DNA of 47,508 bases, taken from positions 1-47,508 of the forward strand of contig JANXYP010000242.1 of assembly GCA_025355955.1 (NCBI GenBank), in the 5' to 3' direction. Under the pieces are notes generated by a model. That model saw only the letters and a list, made by a program, of their open reading frames with translations. It did no database searches and was not told the DNA's origin. Numbering within the stretch: the stretch's first letter is position 1; each line of letters begins with the position of its first letter. Positions 1,060 through 44,758 of the stretch are shown here, one piece after another. Source of the DNA: Chloroflexota bacterium (GTDB lineage: Bacteria; Chloroflexota; Chloroflexia; QHBQ01). The translations under genes and the position numbers were made by a program.

Positions 1060-3414
1060 AACCGTGCTTGTTGAGACTCTCACGTTCAAGCAACTACACT
1101 TTCCTAAATTAATGGAGCTAAACACCACCCGCCGCACCGCCGTTCCCGCCTCACCGCTCACCCGCAGGCGTAGCTTGTTCATCCCAGCTTGCCAGTGCTG
1201 ATGGCTGATCATCACTGCCTGAGTTTGCCAGCCATCACCAGTTAGAGGCACACTGGCTGACGCGCTAGCCTCGTCGTTCAGGTAGATATTGAGGGTATGC
1301 CCTGTGCTGGTCGGACGTAGCATTACGGTTACGGTGTAGTCGCCCGCCGCTCGTACCGGCGCGAGTATCTCTGCTTCTGACCCGCTCATCTGCACGTAGT
1401 TGAACCCTCCTGCTTTGTCTTCAAGGGGGGTATCCTCCCAGCCACGCAGTCGGAACATTCGACTGGCCTGTGCCGCCAATTCCAGATCGCTGAACTCCGC
1501 CAGCGGCTTAACCTCATCGGTACGCACCCGATAGACTACTGTGCTGGCCTTCTGCGTATCAGGGTCGTTGCTGTACACCTGCTCCAGCGGCAAGGTGGCG
1601 CTGAGGAAGCGCAACGCCCCCACTGGCATTGCCGCTGGATGGGTCACGATGTAGCCAATGTCCAGGTAGTATACCAAACGTGCCGCATCGAGTCGGTAGA
1701 AGTTTAGCGCTTTGGTGTTGGATAGCACAGCTTGCAAGGCTATGCCCGCCTGTTCGCGGCCTTGCGCTAGTGAACTTAGCGCATTGAGGAACTCCTCACT
1801 CTGGTAATAGGTGGCGAAGTCGGGTAGTGGGCGCGAAATGTAGGCAGCGAGGATTTTCTTATGGTGCATGGTCTGTTCGTACATCGCCAACGGCTCCTCC
1901 TGTATATTACTGTTGCTGTATGCAGGTAGGTCAAGCACCGCGAAATCGCCCGGCGTGGCGGCAATCTGGTCGAAGATGGCGGGGTGGGTCAGATCAACGC
2001 CTTTGGTGCTCAGTGGCAGGGTTAGGTGCTCGATCAGCATCAGTGGGGTAATCAGGACAAGGAGCAGACCCGCCAGAGTTGCCGGTCGCACTCGCATTCG
2101 GCGCGGCAGCCAGCCGAGCATCGCCCGTACCGTATAACCGACCAGCACACCAGCGGCGAAGGTGATGAGCAGATCGAAGCGGGCGGGTATGCGTGCGTTG
2201 TTTAGCAGCGGCACCGCTGCCCACAGGGCATACGGGCCGGGTATTGGCAGAACCTTACCGAAAATGTGCGGCTGTGGCCCCAACGCAAATAGAAAGCAGA
2301 GCAGCAAGAAGGCCAGCCAGAAGCGAAAATCAGTCAGCCGTCGCGCCAGCCGCCATGTGCCGATCGCCACCAGCACTATGATCGACCAGCCCGCGTATAC
2401 CAGCGATTCAATGCCGCCGCTGTGAATAATCGGCCCGTTTGCCTCTTTCAGCCAGGGGATAGCGGTAAATAGCTTGGAGGCTGGTACGAAAAACCCGGCT
2501 ATATCGGCGTAAAAAACGTCCTCCCCACCCCACTTCACATAGTAGCCATCCCTGATGTCAACAATATCAGCGAATAGAAGAGGCGATGCGATCAGCGCGA
2601 ACACGCCTGTCAGCACCGTCAGCCGTGTCCCTAGTGAGAGCCAGGCGGCGCGGTTGCCGACTCGTCGCCCTGCCGATGCGCTCTTCTCTGCCTGCTCACC
2701 ATCTCTTCCCAGCAGGTAGTAGACGAGATAACAGAGCGAGAAGAAGATCGCGTAGACAGTTTGATAGTAGTCAGTAAGCAAGATGAAACTGAGACTTAGA
2801 CCAGCAAAGGAAGCGTAGCGCAACTGTCGGGCTGGCTCACGCAGCATCTTAATGAAAAAGAGAACATAAAGTGGGAAGAACTCGGTACTGATAATATGCA
2901 AATGCCCGCTGGCCTGATAAAACTTGAATGTCGAAAAGGCAAAGACGATGCCACCGAGAAATGCGGCCCGTTGGTCGCGCACCAGGTAGTTGACTAGCAG
3001 GTACATGGCAAAGGCGGAGATTATGAACGAGGCGAGGATAGCAAGATTGTATGCGGTTTCCGGCCCCCAGATGCTTGTTATCGGAGTGGACAAAAGGGTA
3101 ATCAACTTGGTATCAGCCTGAAGCGCCAGGCGGGTGCCGAAAGGATAGAATATCACATCGGTGGCGAATGGTGAAGCGTGCAAATCCTGTAGAGCGTAGC
3201 GCATCCACCAGAAGTTCCAGACGAACTGGTACTCATCTATGCCGCCGAACAGAAGATAGCGGCTGAACAAGTTGCCCGCCAGCGGCCAGGTCATCACCAC
3301 GCTAATCAGCGTATAGATTAGCAGAACGCCACTATCCACCACTCGCGATCGCGGCACACTTTTTCGCCCTTTACTGCTCGACGGGGCATCGCCTTCTGTG
3401 CTGGTTATATTCAT
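739..3414 (-). CDS. polytopic GT-C-like membrane protein
   Basis: The ORF encodes 891 residues, but only about the first 785 look like this gene. An N-terminal membrane helix (about residues 28-50) is followed by an acidic pair (D60-E61) in a loop and the aromatic motif WNFWW. Roughly ten more membrane segments come next, then a soluble beta-rich C-terminal region (about 640-780) resembling a carbohydrate-binding sandwich. This layout is typical of GT-C-fold membrane glycosyltransferases that use polyprenyl-phosphate sugars, so a role in cell-surface glycan or glycoprotein assembly is inferred; the exact activity is unknown. Residues 786-891 correspond to the start of the next, broken gene, and the expected stop codon between the two is missing. 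The ATG overlaps the stop of the upstream GT-C-like gene by 4 bp, so the two are translationally coupled. Confidence 0.65.
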   Translation of the reverse strand: MNITSTEGDAPSSSKGRKSVPRSRVVDSGVLLIYTLISVVMTWPLAGNLFSRYLLFGGIDEYQFVWNFWWMRYALQDLHASPFATDVIFYPFGTRLALQADTKLITLLSTPITSIWGPETAYNLAILASFIISAFAMYLLVNYLVRDQRAAFLGGIVFAFSTFKFYQASGHLHIISTEFFPLYVLFFIKMLREPARQLRYASFAGLSLSFILLTDYYQTVYAIFFSLCYLVYYLLGRDGEQAEKSASAGRRVGNRAAWLSLGTRLTVLTGVFALIASPLLFADIVDIRDGYYVKWGGEDVFYADIAGFFVPASKLFTAIPWLKEANGPIIHSGGIESLVYAGWSIIVLVAIGTWRLARRLTDFRFWLAFLLLCFLFALGPQPHIFGKVLPIPGPYALWAAVPLLNNARIPARFDLLITFAAGVLVGYTVRAMLGWLPRRMRVRPATLAGLLLVLITPLMLIEHLTLPLSTKGVDLTHPAIFDQIAATPGDFAVLDLPAYSNSNIQEEPLAMYEQTMHHKKILAAYISRPLPDFATYYQSEEFLNALSSLAQGREQAGIALQAVLSNTKALNFYRLDAARLVYYLDIGYIVTHPAAMPVGALRFLSATLPLEQVYSNDPDTQKASTVVYRVRTDEVKPLAEFSDLELAAQASRMFRLRGWEDTPLEDKAGGFNYVQMSGSEAEILAPVRAAGDYTVTVMLRPTSTGHTLNIYLNDEASASASVPLTGDGWQTQAVMISHQHWQAGMNKLRLRVSGEAGTAVRRVVFSSINLGKCSCLNVRVSTSTVMRDFAWLQQPRYWLLVIVLAGWAAALGVGLPATNYLSIERRWQRRTFRAYADLAVSPVPTKTVVCAGCTATAASTYQVSMLATHSLSASIPAAGEEVTLPKGGWLR

Positions 3415-5051
3415 GGTGCAAGCAGCGCGTTGGCGCTGGGAAACTCCTTCAGCGTATTGCCAATGAAGCGAAAGTAGTAGCTAGGCATATCGCCAGGCTG
3501 GGTCAGCGCGGCAGCGAAGCGGCTGGCATCGTAGCCCGGCCCACCACTTGCGTATACCTGTAGGCTGGGGTCGGCGTAGGCTAGTTGCACTGCCGTGACC
3601 GCGCCAGTGTTCAGGATGCTGGCGCGGCGATAGCTGAGTGGCGGGTCGGCGATGAAGAAGCGACTGCCCGGCGGCACACTGGGGTGGTCAGCCTTTAGCT
3701 GGGTCAGAAAGCTGCGCGTGACCTCACCCGCCACCCGCCACTCGTCGTTATGCGCGAGCGTCGCCAGGCTGCCATAGCCGATCAGCAGGATGGTGATCAT
3801 AGCGGCTACGTAAGTTTTGAGTTTTGAGTTTTGAGTTTTGAGTTCAGTGCGGCGGATTTTGGAATTGGAGTATGCGTCGCGCACTGCGGACCCACCCCCA
3901 GCCCCTCCCGGTGGGAGGGGAACAGTACTTCGCAATACCTTGCCGATTATCGCGGCCAGCAGCAGGGCGAAGCCAACGCTGGGCAGGTAGGCATAGCGGG
4001 TGGCAAGGTCGTTGGCGGGGATGTTGACGAAGGGAGCCACGCTCAGGAACATCCAGGCCAGCCCAAACCAGGCCAGCTTGCCCGCCCAGATTGCCAGCGC
4101 CATTGCCGCGAACAGGAAGCCGCCCAGCAAGGCGAATGCGACCCCGCCTTGTATCCCCGCGATGATGGGAAGACCGAGCAGCATCCCCAGATATCCCGCC
4201 AGGTTGTCTACAATGCTGCCTCCACCGCTGCCCCCATAGCCGAGCATTAGCAGGTGATTGGCATTGAGCCAGAGGCGCAGCAGTAGATAACCGCCGCCCA
4301 GCAGCATGAACGGCGCGTGCCGTCGCAGCTTGGCTCCAACAAATATCGCAAAATCAATTCTGTAGGGGCGGGATTTATCCCGCCCTGTTATGATTCCAGG
4401 TTGCGGTCCGTAGGGGCGGGATTTATCCCGCCCTGGTGCAATGCCCGGCTGCGGAAAGAACAACAGGTCAGCTAGAAGCAGCAGCGCGGGTGCAGTCAAT
4501 CCAATCTCTTTGGCGAGGATGGCAAGCAGCAGCGCGATCAAAGCCAGCGCATACCAGCGGCGGCGCTGCGTCTGCATATACAACACGAAGGCGGTGACGC
4601 AAGCGAGATACATCACCGTCGCCAGCGCATCGAAGCGCCCGTCAATCCAGGTGATGCTGCCGGGATGTGCTGGCTGCACCACGAAGATTAGGGCGGCCAG
4701 TGCTGCAACCAGCGACCCGCGCAGGCGGTAGGCCAGCAGCCAGACTAGCGCAACGCAGGCCAGATTGATGAGCAGGTTGGTCAGCCGCCACAGCGCGGGG
4801 TTGGCCCCCCACAACTGATAATCGGCAACGAAACTGAGCCAGGTGAGTGGTCGATAGAAGCCATTACCCCGCGCCAGATTGAAGAAATTGAGGATTTGCG
4901 GCCATTCCTTCTTCACTACAAAGTTGAAATCATCTGCCGCCCAGTAGTAGCCGAGCGTGGGCAGGTAGAGCAGCAAGGTGAGCGCCAGCGCTGCTCCCAG
5001 CCCCAGCCATGCCCATCGCCACTCCTGTCTCGCTGCTACTTGCGCCTCGAT
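3411..5051 (-). CDS. GT-C-like membrane glycosyltransferase carrying repeat-encoded inserts
   Basis: A polytopic membrane protein with the acidic motif AADDFNFV after the first helix and the following motif FYRPLTWLSF, as in GT-C-type and TMTC-like O-glycosyltransferases. The ORF track begins at TTG 4976, which would remove half of the first membrane helix. The frame is open further upstream, and an AAGGAG sequence lies 8 nt before an ATC at 5051. That start restores a complete N-terminus (546 residues), so I take ATC 5051 as the likely, non-canonical start. Repeats interrupt the protein in frame: two copies of GRDKSRPY from palindromes at 4362-4435, a PLPPGGAGGGS stretch from a palindrome near 3888, and NSKLKT-type text from a heptamer array at 3814. 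These inserts appear to sit in loops between helices. The 3' end overlaps the next gene by 4 bp. Confidence 0.65.
   Translation of the reverse strand: MEAQVAARQEWRWAWLGLGAALALTLLLYLPTLGYYWAADDFNFVVKKEWPQILNFFNLARGNGFYRPLTWLSFVADYQLWGANPALWRLTNLLINLACVALVWLLAYRLRGSLVAALAALIFVVQPAHPGSITWIDGRFDALATVMYLACVTAFVLYMQTQRRRWYALALIALLLAILAKEIGLTAPALLLLADLLFFPQPGIAPGRDKSRPYGPQPGIITGRDKSRPYRIDFAIFVGAKLRRHAPFMLLGGGYLLLRLWLNANHLLMLGYGGSGGGSIVDNLAGYLGMLLGLPIIAGIQGGVAFALLGGFLFAAMALAIWAGKLAWFGLAWMFLSVAPFVNIPANDLATRYAYLPSVGFALLLAAIIGKVLRSTVPLPPGGAGGGSAVRDAYSNSKIRRTELKTQNSKLKTYVAAMITILLIGYGSLATLAHNDEWRVAGEVTRSFLTQLKADHPSVPPGSRFFIADPPLSYRRASILNTGAVTAVQLAYADPSLQVYASGGPGYDASRFAAALTQPGDMPSYYFRFIGNTLKEFPSANALLAP
3814..3844. 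repeat. heptanucleotide tandem array (TTTTGAG)n inside a CDS
   Basis: About 4.4 copies of the 7-mer TTTTGAG in the plus orientation. It lies inside the GT-C-like gene and is translated on the minus strand as Asn-Ser-Lys-Leu-Lys-Thr type text. The same 7-mer, reverse complemented, recurs at 6332-6366. Confidence 0.85.
3888..3923. repeat. family 2 palindrome (CCCCTCCC...GGGAGGGG) inside a CDS
   Basis: A palindrome with stem CCCCTCCC/GGGAGGGG preceded by GGACCCACCCCCAG. The same unit occurs inverted at 44724-44758 after the transglycosylase gene, with related forms at 8093, 27916, 33753 and 35789. Here it is read in frame as proline- and glycine-rich residues. Confidence 0.8.
4362..4435. repeat. 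two family 1 palindromes 48 bp apart, translated as GRDKSRPY
   Basis: Two identical 26-bp palindromes begin at 4362 and 4410. Both start GTAGGGGCG and end CGCCCTG, around a stem with a short loop. Flanking bases are partly duplicated too, so the protein reads PQPGI(A/I)(P/T)GRDKSRPY twice. The 48-bp period equals exactly 16 codons, which keeps the gene in frame. Confidence 0.9.
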
Positions 5052-6328: not shown

Positions 6329-7234
6329 GTGAACACTCAAAACTCAAAACTCATAACTCAAAACTTCACTACGCTCGGCATCGTCGGCAGCGGCACGATG
6401 GGCGGGGGCATCGCCCAGATTGCCGCGCAACACGGCTTCAGCGTCATCCTCTACGACATCAACACGGAGATTGTAACCCGCTCAGTTGGTCGCTTGCAGG
6501 CGATGCTGGACAAGCTGGCGGCCAAGGGCAAGTTGAGCGGCGATGATGTAGCCGCTACCATCAGCCGCATCCGCGCCACCGCCACACTTGAAGAGCTGGC
6601 CGCCGCCGATTTTATCATCGAAGCCGCGCCGGAGGACATAACCCTCAAGCGTGACATCTTTTCGCGGCTCGATGCTGCCTGCCCACCCACCACTATCCTC
6701 GCTAGCAACACCTCGTCGCTATCCATCACCATCCTGGGGGGCGCAACCAGGCGGCCCGCGCAGGTGGTGGGGATGCACTTCTTCAATCCCGTGCCGCTGA
6801 TGGGGCTGGTCGAGGTCATCGTCGGGCAGTATACAGATGAGGAGACCGTCAACTCCACAGTGGCGCTGGCCCAGCAGTTGGGCAAAACCGCAGTGCGTTG
6901 CAACGATACCCCCGGCTTCATCGTCAACCGCGTGGCCCGCAACTTCTATGGCGAGGCGCTGCGTATCGTGGGCGAGCAGGGCGCGACCGTGGAGCAGATC
7001 GACCAGTTGGCCGAGCAGGAGGCAGGCTTTCGCATGGGGCCGTTCCGCCTGATGGATTTGATCGGCATTGACATCAACTTCGCGGTGACGCAATCGGTTT
7101 TCGCCGCCTACTTTGGCGAACCGCGCTATCGTCCCCACCCCATCCAGCAGCGCATGGTGGAGGCGGGCGCGCTTGGGCGCAAGGCAGGGCGCGGTTTCTA
7201 CGATTATAGCAGCGACAAGGAGGCAGCCAAGTGA
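6329..7234 (+). CDS. 3-hydroxyacyl-CoA dehydrogenase (3-hydroxybutyryl- or 3-hydroxyadipyl-CoA type)
   Basis: NAD-dependent oxidation of a 3-hydroxyacyl-CoA to the 3-oxoacyl-CoA. The 301-residue product has the Rossmann motif GIVGSGTMGGGIA near the N-terminus, then NTSSLS, the catalytic-His region GMHFFNPVPLMGLVE, PGFIVNR, and an intact C-terminal domain (GPFRLMDLIGIDI). This is the usual length and order for Hbd/PaaH. The ORF track starts at 6269 inside the terminator; I chose GTG 6329, preceded by GGAG. The first residues (NTQNSKLITQNF) are encoded by a heptamer repeat array, so the N-terminus is repeat-derived. It overlaps the next gene by 4 bp (GTGA), indicating coupling. Next to the PaaA-like gene a PaaH-like role is plausible but not proven. 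Confidence 0.85.
   Translation: MNTQNSKLITQNFTTLGIVGSGTMGGGIAQIAAQHGFSVILYDINTEIVTRSVGRLQAMLDKLAAKGKLSGDDVAATISRIRATATLEELAAADFIIEAAPEDITLKRDIFSRLDAACPPTTILASNTSSLSITILGGATRRPAQVVGMHFFNPVPLMGLVEVIVGQYTDEETVNSTVALAQQLGKTAVRCNDTPGFIVNRVARNFYGEALRIVGEQGATVEQIDQLAEQEAGFRMGPFRLMDLIGIDINFAVTQSVFAAYFGEPRYRPHPIQQRMVEAGALGRKAGRGFYDYSSDKEAAK
6332..6366. repeat. heptanucleotide tandem array (AAAACTC)n at the start of a CDS
   Basis: About four to five copies of the 7-mer AAAACTC with small changes, read as the first dozen codons of the dehydrogenase gene. It is the reverse complement of the array at 3814-3844. Confidence 0.8.
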
Positions 7235-11734: not shown

Positions 11735-11760
11735 GTAGGGGCGGGATTTATCCCGCCCTG
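11735..11760. repeat. family 1 palindrome between adaptor and ATPase genes
   Basis: Identical in core to the units inside the GT-C-like gene at 4362-4435. It sits in the 79-bp gap just before the ATPase ribosome binding site (AGGAGCAAGTAATG). Confidence 0.85.
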
Positions 11761-32542: not shown

Positions 32543-33079
32543 TCAGTCCAGTTCTTGCGCTAGCGGCGTGCCGAGGCCCAGCTTGGCAATCTCCGCGTCA
32601 ATCTGTTCCATACCTGGCAGGTCGCGCTTGTTGTCACCCACGTACATCCAGCGGATCACTTCAGCCTGGTCAATCAGAAAGCAGGCGGGATGGGTGGTGT
32701 GCGCCCCGCTACGGCTGAGGATCAAGGCTTCAGGGGCAAACTCGCGCAGTAGACCATACTCACTGATTACTTTCGCATGAGTGTCCAGCAGATAGGGATA
32801 ACTAATCGGTTCGCGCTTGAAATAGCCTGCCACGATGTCGACCCGCTGGTGGGCAATGCCCAGCACCTGGACACCAGCGGCTTTGAGGCGTGGGTAATGA
32901 GCTTCGAGCGCGGCCAGGTAGGTGCGGCAATCAGGACACCAGGTGCCGCGAAAGAAAAAGAGCAGCACTGGGCAGCCTTGCAGCTCCGCGCTAAGTTGGT
33001 GCGCCTCACCCTGCACATCGGTCAGGGTGAAGTCGGGCGCGGGTTCGCCGATGTGAAGTTTGGTTACACTGAAGGGCAT
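32543..33079 (-). CDS. peroxiredoxin (AhpC/TSA family), copy A
   Basis: 178 residues with a thioredoxin fold: GEPAPDFTLTDVQG, the active-site stretch FFFRGTWCPDCR (C48, C51) and FLIDQAEVIRWMYVGDNKRD. It should reduce peroxides with a thiol donor; the CxxC layout is like the Bcp/PrxQ-type and related AhpC/TSA proteins. The ORF track begins at 33343, but GAGGAG at 8 nt spacing selects ATG 33079. About half identical to the next gene, so a tandem duplication. DUF711 follows 6 bp downstream. Confidence 0.85.
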   Translation of the reverse strand: MPFSVTKLHIGEPAPDFTLTDVQGEAHQLSAELQGCPVLLFFFRGTWCPDCRTYLAALEAHYPRLKAAGVQVLGIAHQRVDIVAGYFKREPISYPYLLDTHAKVISEYGLLREFAPEALILSRSGAHTTHPACFLIDQAEVIRWMYVGDNKRDLPGMEQIDAEIAKLGLGTPLAQELD

Positions 33080-33173: not shown

Positions 33174-33698
33174 TTAGCTCTGTGCTTCACCCAGGCCCAG
33201 CCTGGCAATCTCCGTCTCGATCTGCTCTGCGCTCGGCAGGTCGCGTTTGCTATCGCCCACGTATATCCAGCGAATAATGCCGCTTTGATCAATGAGCAGG
33301 CACGCGGCGTGGGTGGTCTGCGGCCCATTGCGGCTGAGGACAAATGCCCCTATTACAAAGTCGCGGTGTAGGCCATATTCAGTGATAACCTTCATGTCGC
33401 TGTCAATCAGGTAAGGATAGCTTATCGGCTCACGTCGGAAGTAGCTAATCGCAATGTCGCGCCGCTGGTGCGCTATCCCTAGCACCTGGACACCGATCGC
33501 TTTGAAGTGTTCGTAGGGCGCTTCAAGCGCGGTAAGGTAAGCGCGACATTCATCGCACCAGGTACCCCGAAAGAACACCAGCAGCGCCGCGTTGCGCTTC
33601 AGCGTCTCGCTTAGTTGATGGCTTTTGCCCTGCACATCAGGCAGCGTAAAGTCCGGTGCATGGTCGCCAATATGGAGCTTCGTTTCGCTCAGGGGCAT
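33174..33698 (-). CDS. peroxiredoxin (AhpC/TSA family), copy B
   Basis: 174 residues, same architecture as copy A: GDHAPDFTLPDVQG, VFFRGTWCDECR (C48, C51), REPISYPYLIDSD. The two Cys are kept but CPDC has become CDEC, which may shift the redox potential. It is upstream of copy A in the same orientation, 95 bp away, and probably the first gene of the peroxiredoxin-DUF711-acetyltransferase unit. Confidence 0.85.
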   Translation of the reverse strand: MPLSETKLHIGDHAPDFTLPDVQGKSHQLSETLKRNAALLVFFRGTWCDECRAYLTALEAPYEHFKAIGVQVLGIAHQRRDIAISYFRREPISYPYLIDSDMKVITEYGLHRDFVIGAFVLSRNGPQTTHAACLLIDQSGIIRWIYVGDSKRDLPSAEQIETEIARLGLGEAQS

Positions 33699-35500: not shown

Positions 35501-37708
35501 TTACATGGATTCCGGTGCGGCGATGCCCAGCACGGTGAGGCCGTTGCGTAGCGTTTGCTTCGCGGCATGGGTCAGGGCCAGGCGGGCCTGCGTCAGCGCA
35601 GGCGTTTCCGCTTTGATGATTGGACAATTATGGTAGAAATTGTTGAACGCATCGGCCAGGTCGAACAGGTAGATGCAGATGTTGACTGGTCGATACAGCT
35701 CCGCCGCTTTCGCGATCTCGTCAGGGTAGCGCCCGATCAGCTCCAGCAGCGCGGTCTCCTCGCCAGTCAGGATGGTGAAGTCGTAGTCGGACCCTCTCCC
35801 AGCCTCCCCCACCGGGGGAGGAGTCAGGTTAGTCTCCCCCGTTGAGTATGTAGGGGCGAACGGTTGTTCGCCCTGGGCAGCCACCGCCGTTGAGTATGTA
35901 GGGGCGAACCGTTCGCCCTGGGCAGCTTTCTCCAGCACGCGGCAGGCGCGGGCGTGGGCATACTGGATGTAGGGTGCGCTCTGGCCCTCGAAGTTTAGCG
36001 CGGTGTCCCAATCGAAGACGATCACCTTGTTCAAATCCTTGTTCAGCATCTCGAAGCGCAGCGCACCGAAGGCGACCTGCTCGGCAATGTCGCGTTTGGC
36101 GATGTCGTCGAGTTCGGGGTTCTTCTCATTGATGATACTCAGCGCCTTATCCACCGCGCCAGCGGCAATGTCCTCATAAAACAGCACGTTGCCCTTGCGC
36201 GACGACATCGCCCCCCCCTTCATTGTGACCATCTCGTAGCCCAGGTGGGTGAAGCGGTCGACGTTAGGGAAGCCGAGCAGCTCAATCAGCTTGAACACCT
36301 GCTCGAAGTAGAGGCTCTGGCGTACATCCACACAATAAACTAGCCGATCAGCGTGGAAGTCGGCTAGCTTGACGCGAGCGAGGGCGATATCCTTGCTGCC
36401 ATAGAGGCTGGTGCCGTCGCTGCGAAGCAGCACAATGGTGCGCCACACCTCTTTCGGCGAACCGTCGGGGTTCTTCGCGTTCAGTTGCCTGGCATACTTG
36501 GCCGCCAGTTCAGGGTTCTTGCGTAGCTGCTCGTCAATCTTGACGAAGACGGTGCCGGTAGGTCGCTCGTCGGTGGCAATGCCGCGCTTGATTAGCTCCT
36601 CGGTCAGCGTTACCCCTTCTACCTCTACCTCGCTCTCGAAGAACCATTGGTCGAACTGCACGTTAAGCTGTTGATAGATGCGGTAAAACTCCTCCATGCT
36701 CCACGCTTTGGTGCGTTGCCAGAGCGCGATCAAGTCGGGGTCGCGAGCCTCCCACTGCCGCCACAACGCAGCCTGCTCTGCCTTCCAGCCGTCTACCTGC
36801 GGCCACCAGTCCATATGCGCGTCCAGCCTGGCGTACTCCGCCCGATCCTCTGTGTCAACATCAGACGTTGGCAACCACTCGCCCAGCCGCGCCCACGCCC
36901 CAAGTAGGAGGTCGTGATCGGCGAACGCGCCGTAGTCAGGCCTATCCTTGCTGGGTAGCGAACTGATCAAATAGCTGGCATCAGGGTGGTGGGCGCTTGC
37001 CTCTTGCAGATAGTCGAATGCCGCTGCCTTCGCACCAGCATGGTCACGCACCAGTCGCTGGCTGAGTGCCAGCACCTCATTCTTGTATTCGGTGCGGGCG
37101 TTACCCTCGACGTAGACGCGGTTCAGCCAGATGCCGCGCTGGTGGGGCGGCTCTTCGTCCTTGTGGAAGCGCAGATAGCACCACAGGCTTTTAATCACGT
37201 GTGCGCCCATGTCGCCAATATAATTCGCGCCAATCACCTCGAAACCAGATGCGCGCAGGATATTGACCACGCTGCTGCCCAGGCAGGCATTGCGTAGGTG
37301 GCCGACATGGAACGCCTTGTGCGTGTTCGGCTGCGAGAACTCCACCATGATGCGCTCGTTCCTGGTGGGGCCGTTGCCGTAATAATCACCCTCATTGTCT
37401 ACTGCCGCGATTACCTGATTGGCGAACCACGAGGTGTTCAGATAGACGTTGATGTAGCCATTCATCGCCTCGACCCGTGCCACTTCGCGGCGGGTGGGCA
37501 ACGCGGCGACAATGCGCTCGGCTAGCTGCGCCGGATTGGTCGCCGCCTGCTTCGCAAGCTGGAAGCTGACGCTGCAGGCATAGCCCCATTTACCTGCGAA
37601 CTGGCCGGACAGCGGCTTCAATTCGATATTCTCTGGGGCGTTTAGCCCAATCGCGCTGATTGCTGTTATTATATCGCTGGCAAGCTCACTGCGGATGTCG
37701 TTGTACAT
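35501..37708 (-). CDS. argS: arginyl-tRNA synthetase with a palindrome-encoded insert
   Basis: Charges tRNA-Arg with arginine. The 735-residue product has the HIGH-type motif in FSQPNTHKAFHVGHLRN, a KMSKS-like loop GGAMSSRKGN, the substrate segment QSAPYIQYAHARACR, and the DALR anticodon domain (YRPVNICIYLFDLADAFNNFY). Between the catalytic and anticodon domains (about residues 595-640) is a stretch with no counterpart in ArgRS: AAQGERFAPTYSTAV, a second near copy, and TPPPVGEAGRGS. It is encoded by three palindromic repeats at 35789-35926 and stays in frame. I chose ATG 37708, with GGGGA upstream, over the track start at TTG 37732. Confidence 0.9.
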   Translation of the reverse strand: MYNDIRSELASDIITAISAIGLNAPENIELKPLSGQFAGKWGYACSVSFQLAKQAATNPAQLAERIVAALPTRREVARVEAMNGYINVYLNTSWFANQVIAAVDNEGDYYGNGPTRNERIMVEFSQPNTHKAFHVGHLRNACLGSSVVNILRASGFEVIGANYIGDMGAHVIKSLWCYLRFHKDEEPPHQRGIWLNRVYVEGNARTEYKNEVLALSQRLVRDHAGAKAAAFDYLQEASAHHPDASYLISSLPSKDRPDYGAFADHDLLLGAWARLGEWLPTSDVDTEDRAEYARLDAHMDWWPQVDGWKAEQAALWRQWEARDPDLIALWQRTKAWSMEEFYRIYQQLNVQFDQWFFESEVEVEGVTLTEELIKRGIATDERPTGTVFVKIDEQLRKNPELAAKYARQLNAKNPDGSPKEVWRTIVLLRSDGTSLYGSKDIALARVKLADFHADRLVYCVDVRQSLYFEQVFKLIELLGFPNVDRFTHLGYEMVTMKGGAMSSRKGNVLFYEDIAAGAVDKALSIINEKNPELDDIAKRDIAEQVAFGALRFEMLNKDLNKVIVFDWDTALNFEGQSAPYIQYAHARACRVLEKAAQGERFAPTYSTAVAAQGEQPFAPTYSTGETNLTPPPVGEAGRGSDYDFTILTGEETALLELIGRYPDEIAKAAELYRPVNICIYLFDLADAFNNFYHNCPIIKAETPALTQARLALTHAAKQTLRNGLTVLGIAAPESM
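35789..35926. repeat. three palindromes inside argS, translated in frame
   Basis: Two family 1 units embedded in longer direct repeats (35841-35881 and 35889-35926, starting exactly 48 bp apart) and one family 2 unit (35789-35825). The two family 1 copies differ by a 3-bp loss inside the loop, so the frame is kept. Confidence 0.9.
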
Positions 37709-37748
37709 ATCGCTCAATCCCCAATCAGTCAAAGTTCAAGTTAATCTA

Positions 37749-38752: not shown

Positions 38753-39085
38753 ATGACCGCTTTCACTTTTCCCACCGTAGAGCCGCCCTATCGCCCCGCT
38801 CTCATCCCGCTGCTCGGCAATCTCTCATTGGCCGATGAAGCCATACCTGCCGAGGAGTTGGAGGACGAGGAGTTGGATGACGAAGAATTGGATGACGAGG
38901 AGTTGGACGACGAGGATGACGATCTCGACGAGGACGATATTGACGGCGATGACCTCGACGATGATGACGACGAAGAGTTTGAGGAGCTGGACGACGATGA
39001 CCTCGACGATGAGGACGACGAAGAGTTTGAAGACGACGAAGACCTCGACGATGAGGAAGAGGACGTAGTAGCCGAGGGTCAGTAA
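38753..39085 (+). CDS. extremely acidic low-complexity protein
   Basis: 110 residues. The first 30 are ordinary (MTAFTFPTVEPPYRPALIPL); after that nearly every residue is Asp or Glu with spaced Leu/Phe (EELDDEELDDEELDDEDDDL). Such tails occur in proteins that bind Ca2+, mimic nucleic acid or hold basic partners, but no function is implied here. ATG 38753 is preceded by GAGGAGGAA, a strong site, and it has its own promoter, so it is a real gene rather than an artefact. It lies directly upstream of the PstS-like gene (68 bp). Confidence 0.65.
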   Translation: MTAFTFPTVEPPYRPALIPLLGNLSLADEAIPAEELEDEELDDEELDDEELDDEDDDLDEDDIDGDDLDDDDDEEFEELDDDDLDDEDDEEFEDDEDLDDEEEDVVAEGQ

Positions 39086-44723: not shown

Positions 44724-44758
44724 CTCCCCTCCCGCCGGGAGGGGTTGGGGGTGGGTCC
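44724..44758. repeat. family 2 palindrome after the transglycosylase gene
   Basis: Inverted copy of the 3888-3923 unit: CTCCCCTCCCGCCGGGAGGGG followed by TTGGGGGTGGGTCC. It begins 6 nt after the stop and could act as a transcription end. Confidence 0.8.

Follow-up and report, generated by a model that had tools for sequence, protein, structure and literature searches.

The palindrome pair of the GT-C-like gene

The stretch of DNA analysed here (the window) comprises 47,508 nucleotides of contig JANXYP010000242.1 from a Chloroflexota bacterium (assembly GCA_025355955.1), and the element in question is a short GTAG-tagged palindrome, two copies of which lie inside a gene for a GT-C-like glycosyltransferase, where they would be translated as the octapeptide GRDKSRPY. 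The host open reading frame (ORF; 3411-4976, minus strand) encodes a predicted multi-transmembrane protein of 521 amino acids, assigned to the PMT/GT-C type by its translation, a profile match to PF02366 (3e-6), and homologues in relatives. Copies A (4362-4387) and B (4410-4435) of this family 1 palindrome are located on the plus strand, antisense to the gene, with GRDKSRPY read on the minus strand from each, while the third exact copy (11735-11760, plus strand) is intergenic, between a HlyD-like gene and an ABC ATPase gene. The original prediction had taken the two 26-bp units to be identical to the one at 11735 and to repeat at 48 bp, or 16 codons; this was borne out by exact matches to the 26-mer GTAGGGGCGGGATTTATCCCGCCCTG at all three places and by a measured spacing of 48 bp. 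No further site within three mismatches of this 26-mer was found in the window, none being expected and shuffled sequences yielding none.

Across the palindrome pair, the ORF reads PQPGIAPGRDKSRPYGPQPGIITGRDKSRPY, within the wider translation ...LLADLLFFPQPGIAPGRDKSRPYGPQPGIITGRDKSRPYRIDFA... The placement of the pair in a loop between membrane helices also stood, the insert following one hydrophobic segment (AKEIGLTAPALLLLADLLF) and preceding the next (APFMLLGGGYLLLR). In the sense of the gene, the pair forms two tandem 48-bp units (4362-4457, minus strand), each consisting of a 22-nt spacer (..PQPGI..) and then the palindrome. The units differ at 10 positions, all in the spacer and none in the 26-bp palindrome, a distribution that random placement would yield with P of about 1e-4 for this window pair. 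The four differences in the PQPGI part are all third-position and synonymous, as a translated sequence would be expected to show, and the palindromes are identical even at synonymous sites, which may reflect either a DNA-level constraint or homogenisation, or palindromes younger than the spacers.

The same gene holds all three repeat types encountered in this analysis, the others being a repeat read as PLPPGGAGGGS on the minus strand (3888-3921, plus strand; inverted copy at 44725-44758) and an (AGTTTTG)n heptamer array read as TQNSKLK on the minus strand (3812-3843, plus strand; inverted copy at 6335-6366). Judged alone, an insertion event in the GT-C gene is likely but not proved, because the length of the loop holding the insert varies among distant homologues. 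A fragment at a contig end (L073; C103:6467-6610) shares 81% identity with the C-terminal 48 residues of the GT-C protein and represents a paralogue or a second strain.

The best proof of insertion lies in the same window, in the gene for arginyl-tRNA synthetase (ArgRS; 35501-37732, minus strand; PF00750, PF05746; TIGR00456, 2.6e-127). There, a different sub-family supplies a pair of GTAG palindromes with 48-bp spacing (35850-35918, plus strand), read as QGERFAPT and QGEQPFAPT in a loop of 53 residues, as compared with 14-24 residues in 29 orthologues, from all of which the palindrome units are absent; the extra stretch is also absent from the solved ArgRS of archaeal type (PDB 2zue). The additional residues correspond to the two palindrome units and a third repeat (PPPVGEAGRG), and one of the palindromes carries a 3-nt deletion with the frame kept.

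A dispersed GTAG-tagged element and its octapeptide

The genome is a 5.15-Mb assembly resembling a metagenome-assembled genome (MAG), in 420 contigs and 84% complete; cluster statistics were drawn from 1.39 Mb of genome stretches, and some from a 1.0-Mb set. Elements of the pattern GTAGGGGCG...CGCCC gave 1,241 matches genome-wide, the reversed pattern used as a control giving 5, and GTAGGGGCG itself occurs 16 times in the window where 0.46 would be expected. Family 1 accounts for 9 exact copies genome-wide and 61 at three or fewer mismatches. Hairpins preceded by GTAG numbered 257 in about 1.0 Mb, compared with 8-39 for nine other tetranucleotides. GTAG stands at one palindrome end and mostly TG at the opposite one, and the element is therefore asymmetric. 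Its single strands fold into a hairpin with 8 bp in the stem and 4 nt in the loop (-10.4 kcal/mol as DNA, z -4.8, for both palindromes of the GT-C gene), and the sub-families differ in the inner stem by compensatory changes, pair 10-19 being GC, AT, CG, or TA. Most copies are intergenic: 21 of 259 clusters fall inside called genes, a few of these being chance hairpins, and 40 at contig edges are unclassifiable. Neighbours within 130 bp of each other share the same orientation in 54 cases and are inverted in 4 (1.0-Mb set). The tag, the stem-loop in the 20-40 bp range, the covarying sub-families, and the copy number are features of GTAG-tagged repetitive extragenic palindromic (REP) elements (PMC3733652), and the palindromes are, by their sequence, one sub-family of an abundant, dispersed element of this REP-like kind. 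An Rfam scan of the window returned two tRNAs only.

The original prediction further held that GRDKSRPY should mark many unrelated proteins of the organism and would not be confined to one family as a conserved motif. When the genome was searched with a degenerate DNA pattern for the octapeptide (serine as TCN), all 23 places able to encode it proved to be the palindrome, most of them non-coding. Four credible and unrelated proteins carry the peptide in frame: the GT-C protein (twice), a DJ-1/PfpI-OGG fusion (L260) in which PF01965 and PF07934 flank the insert, a GT4-type glycosyltransferase (L271), and a Wzy_C/O-antigen ligase-like protein (L309); a fifth host, a membrane-like ORF (L005) with no Pfam match and a weak coding score, is doubtful. 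The hosts are thus unrelated, and confinement to one family did not hold, but "many" was an overstatement, most copies being intergenic and most in-gene ones being of another sub-family or in another frame. Other in-gene copies give QGGINPAPT, QGEQRFAPT, LGAINHAPT, or RANNGSPL, from other sub-families or another frame. A literature text search found no mention of GRDKSRPY, and with GTAGGGGC as the query only unrelated papers were among the matches listed.

Among 301 genomes of the phylum, the exact family 1 24-mer was found in no other. Assemblies that bear the labels of many other phyla do contain it (L142-L197, mainly contigs of Candidatus Gemmiger stercoripullorum), and in one Gemmiger MAG it is present dozens of times, the copies often being separated by about 130-140 bp; horizontal transfer, mis-binning, or a coincidental match on a shared scaffold may be responsible. 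The relative G039 carries a fully symmetric form, GTAGGGGCGACGCATGCGTCGCCCCTAC, with the tag at both ends, the form described here being asymmetric; the suspicion of a replichore strand bias in this genome was rejected, as its symmetric palindrome matches both strands.

Copies within genes

A list of in-gene copies curated by hand over the 1.39 Mb contains 13 clusters. Three candidates (L087:9193, L112:1927, and L113:2915) were set aside as native genes in which a hairpin probably matches by chance, and two (L122:18383 and L266:130) as lying in doubtful ORFs. The retained copies sit in loops or inter-domain linkers with the frame kept. Twelve of the clusters are wholly antisense to the host gene, one is mixed, and none is wholly sense; the automatic gene caller, before curation, had favoured antisense by 19 to 2 (weighted by cluster) and gave a second mixed dimer (L240:2974) in the same gene as L271. 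Where the flanking genes share a strand, intergenic sites are sense in 78 cases and antisense in 51. The TAG of the tag closes one in three sense frames; stops alone are insufficient for the antisense bias, because one antisense frame of family 1 is closed too. Peptides of the sense strand are more hydrophobic (VGAGFIPP, RGGIYPAL), which may be the reason for the bias.

Spacings between same-strand copies in genes (48, 48, 51, and 60) are all multiples of three, compared with 21 of 54 in the 1.0-Mb set. A heptamer array lies within 200 bp of 8 of the 13 in-gene clusters, as against 3% of random positions and 28 of 242 other clusters, and invariably lies on the strand giving a stop-free reading (TQNSKLK or STQHSAL). 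Since seven is not a multiple of three, any frame of the heptamer yields the same cyclic peptide. The company of these arrays, together with the presence of all three repeats in the GT-C gene, suggests that permissive loops collect several repeat types. The arrays, (ACTCAAA)n and (GCACTCA)n, were observed at 3812-3843 and 6335-6366 of the window and at L040-L257.

Coding bias is present to either side of the inserts, and Pfam domains flank the insert in ArgRS and in two apparent fusions, LivM-LivG (L258:1623 region, C48) and DJ-1/PfpI-OGG (L260:1501, C124); the linkers of both fusions consist of the palindrome and the TQNSKLK repeat. A repeat-mediated gene fusion is possible in both ORFs. Elsewhere in the window, an acidic Asp/Glu-rich repeat-coding tract with 15-nt periodicity occurs at 38828-39075, and neighbouring ORFs contain a direct duplication of 300 nt (32571-32870 and 33190-33489; 71% identical).

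Origin of the peptide and known systems

The in-gene copies are most probably tolerated insertions of GTAG REP-like elements, GRDKSRPY being a by-product of the spread of a DNA element and not a selected motif. The element (tag GTAG, 8-bp stem, 4-nt loop), abundant, dispersed, and mainly between genes, would have entered genes at tolerated places, singly or as an element-plus-flank unit, and some of the entered units would later have been duplicated in tandem, as in the 48-bp, 16-codon repeat of the GT-C gene. Only in-frame, stop-free, and mostly hydrophilic readings would have survived, which would make the peptide a by-product.

Several points weigh against this interpretation. The translation of the GT-C insert is a prediction from sequence. 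Comparison with orthologues lacking the insert, as had been proposed, was clean for ArgRS, but no empty site in a close relative was found for the GT-C gene, the best homologues being about 25-35% identical and the loop variable. The Y1 transposase profile PF01797 (REP-associated tyrosine transposase, RAYT) has no match in this genome, an absence that is not certain because the genome is only 84% complete, and no GTAGGGG palindrome lies near the best 20 Y1 loci of relatives. PF01797 is present in 32 of 61 genomes of a class-level search; in the relative G033, estimated to be 100% complete, the element pattern matches 179 times and the Y1 profile not at all. Mobilisation by a RAYT is plausible from the tag but unsupported here.

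A protein motif under selection (a signal for targeting, binding, or modification), encoded by a palindrome only by coincidence, would account for one octapeptide in four credible unrelated proteins and for GT-C copies that stayed identical while their spacer diverged. It is nonetheless highly improbable, as all encoding sites are palindromic and most non-coding, none of the 23 uses non-palindromic synonymous codons, and related elements are read in other frames (QGEQRFAPT, RANNGSPL); moreover, the identity of the palindromes reaches synonymous sites and is therefore an identity of DNA. The strong hairpin, the covarying stems, and the identity of palindromes between diverged spacers are what would be expected if the elements were kept in genes for a role in DNA or RNA, as an mRNA hairpin or a nucleoid protein or gyrase site, with translation incidental. 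Given that only a small share of the clusters lies in genes and that recognition by a mobility enzyme could explain the covariation equally well, this is considered unlikely. That the host ORFs represent gene decay or artefacts of a MAG-like assembly, staying open by chance, is very unlikely: the fragmentation and incompleteness of the genome and the distance of the GT-C homologues would allow it, but the coding bias, the Pfam domains on either side of the inserts, the in-frame deletion within one ArgRS palindrome, and the multiple-of-three spacing in genes argue against it.

Beyond tolerated insertion, it is tentatively suggested, with considerable doubt, that the palindrome, the TQNSKLK arrays, and the PLPPGG-type repeat may continually supply this lineage with in-frame linkers, with near-exclusively antisense, hydrophilic entry, loops being lengthened and neighbouring genes fused (PfpI-OGG through a GRDKSRPY linker, LivM-LivG through a RANNDSPL linker). 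By sequence, a selfish-looking DNA repeat writes the same peptide into unrelated proteins, with palindromic repeats in a tRNA synthetase also, and apparently bridges two genes into one, making the birth of loops and linkers from repeats directly testable. Annotators should be warned that such shared octapeptides are probably readings of a DNA element and not protein motifs.

GTAG-tagged REP elements were described in 2013, including intragenic REPs and GTAG-23 of T. roseum, with Chloroflexi among the hosts, and REPs wholly within ORFs as well as Rickettsia palindromic elements (RPEs) in frame have already been reported (PMC3733652). The elements described here share with them the GTAG at one end, the short GC-rich stem-loop, the many copies, the sub-families with complementary stem changes, and a mostly intergenic location with some copies wholly in ORFs. 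They differ in that no Y1 transposase was found, that in-gene copies are almost all antisense, and that heptamer arrays and two apparent fusions with the element in the linker accompany them; direct dimers, rare in most genomes though not a defining trait, here predominate head-to-tail (54 of 58). REP-RAYT pairs, or REPtrons (PMC2817692, PMC3733652), are alike in that a GTAG tag with a hairpin is the type of substrate used by RAYT transposases, and unlike in that PF01797 has no match here and the checked Y1 genes of relatives are not flanked by this palindrome. The RPEs, as cited in PMC3733652, are likewise in-frame palindromic repeats in unrelated genes, but come from another phylum, and RPE-4 and RPE-6 bear CGTC in place of GTAG. 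The RPE-like combination of an insert absent from orthologues and a frame that is kept was found in ArgRS (29 orthologues). The phenomenon is known in other bacteria, and the present genome is a well-documented further case.
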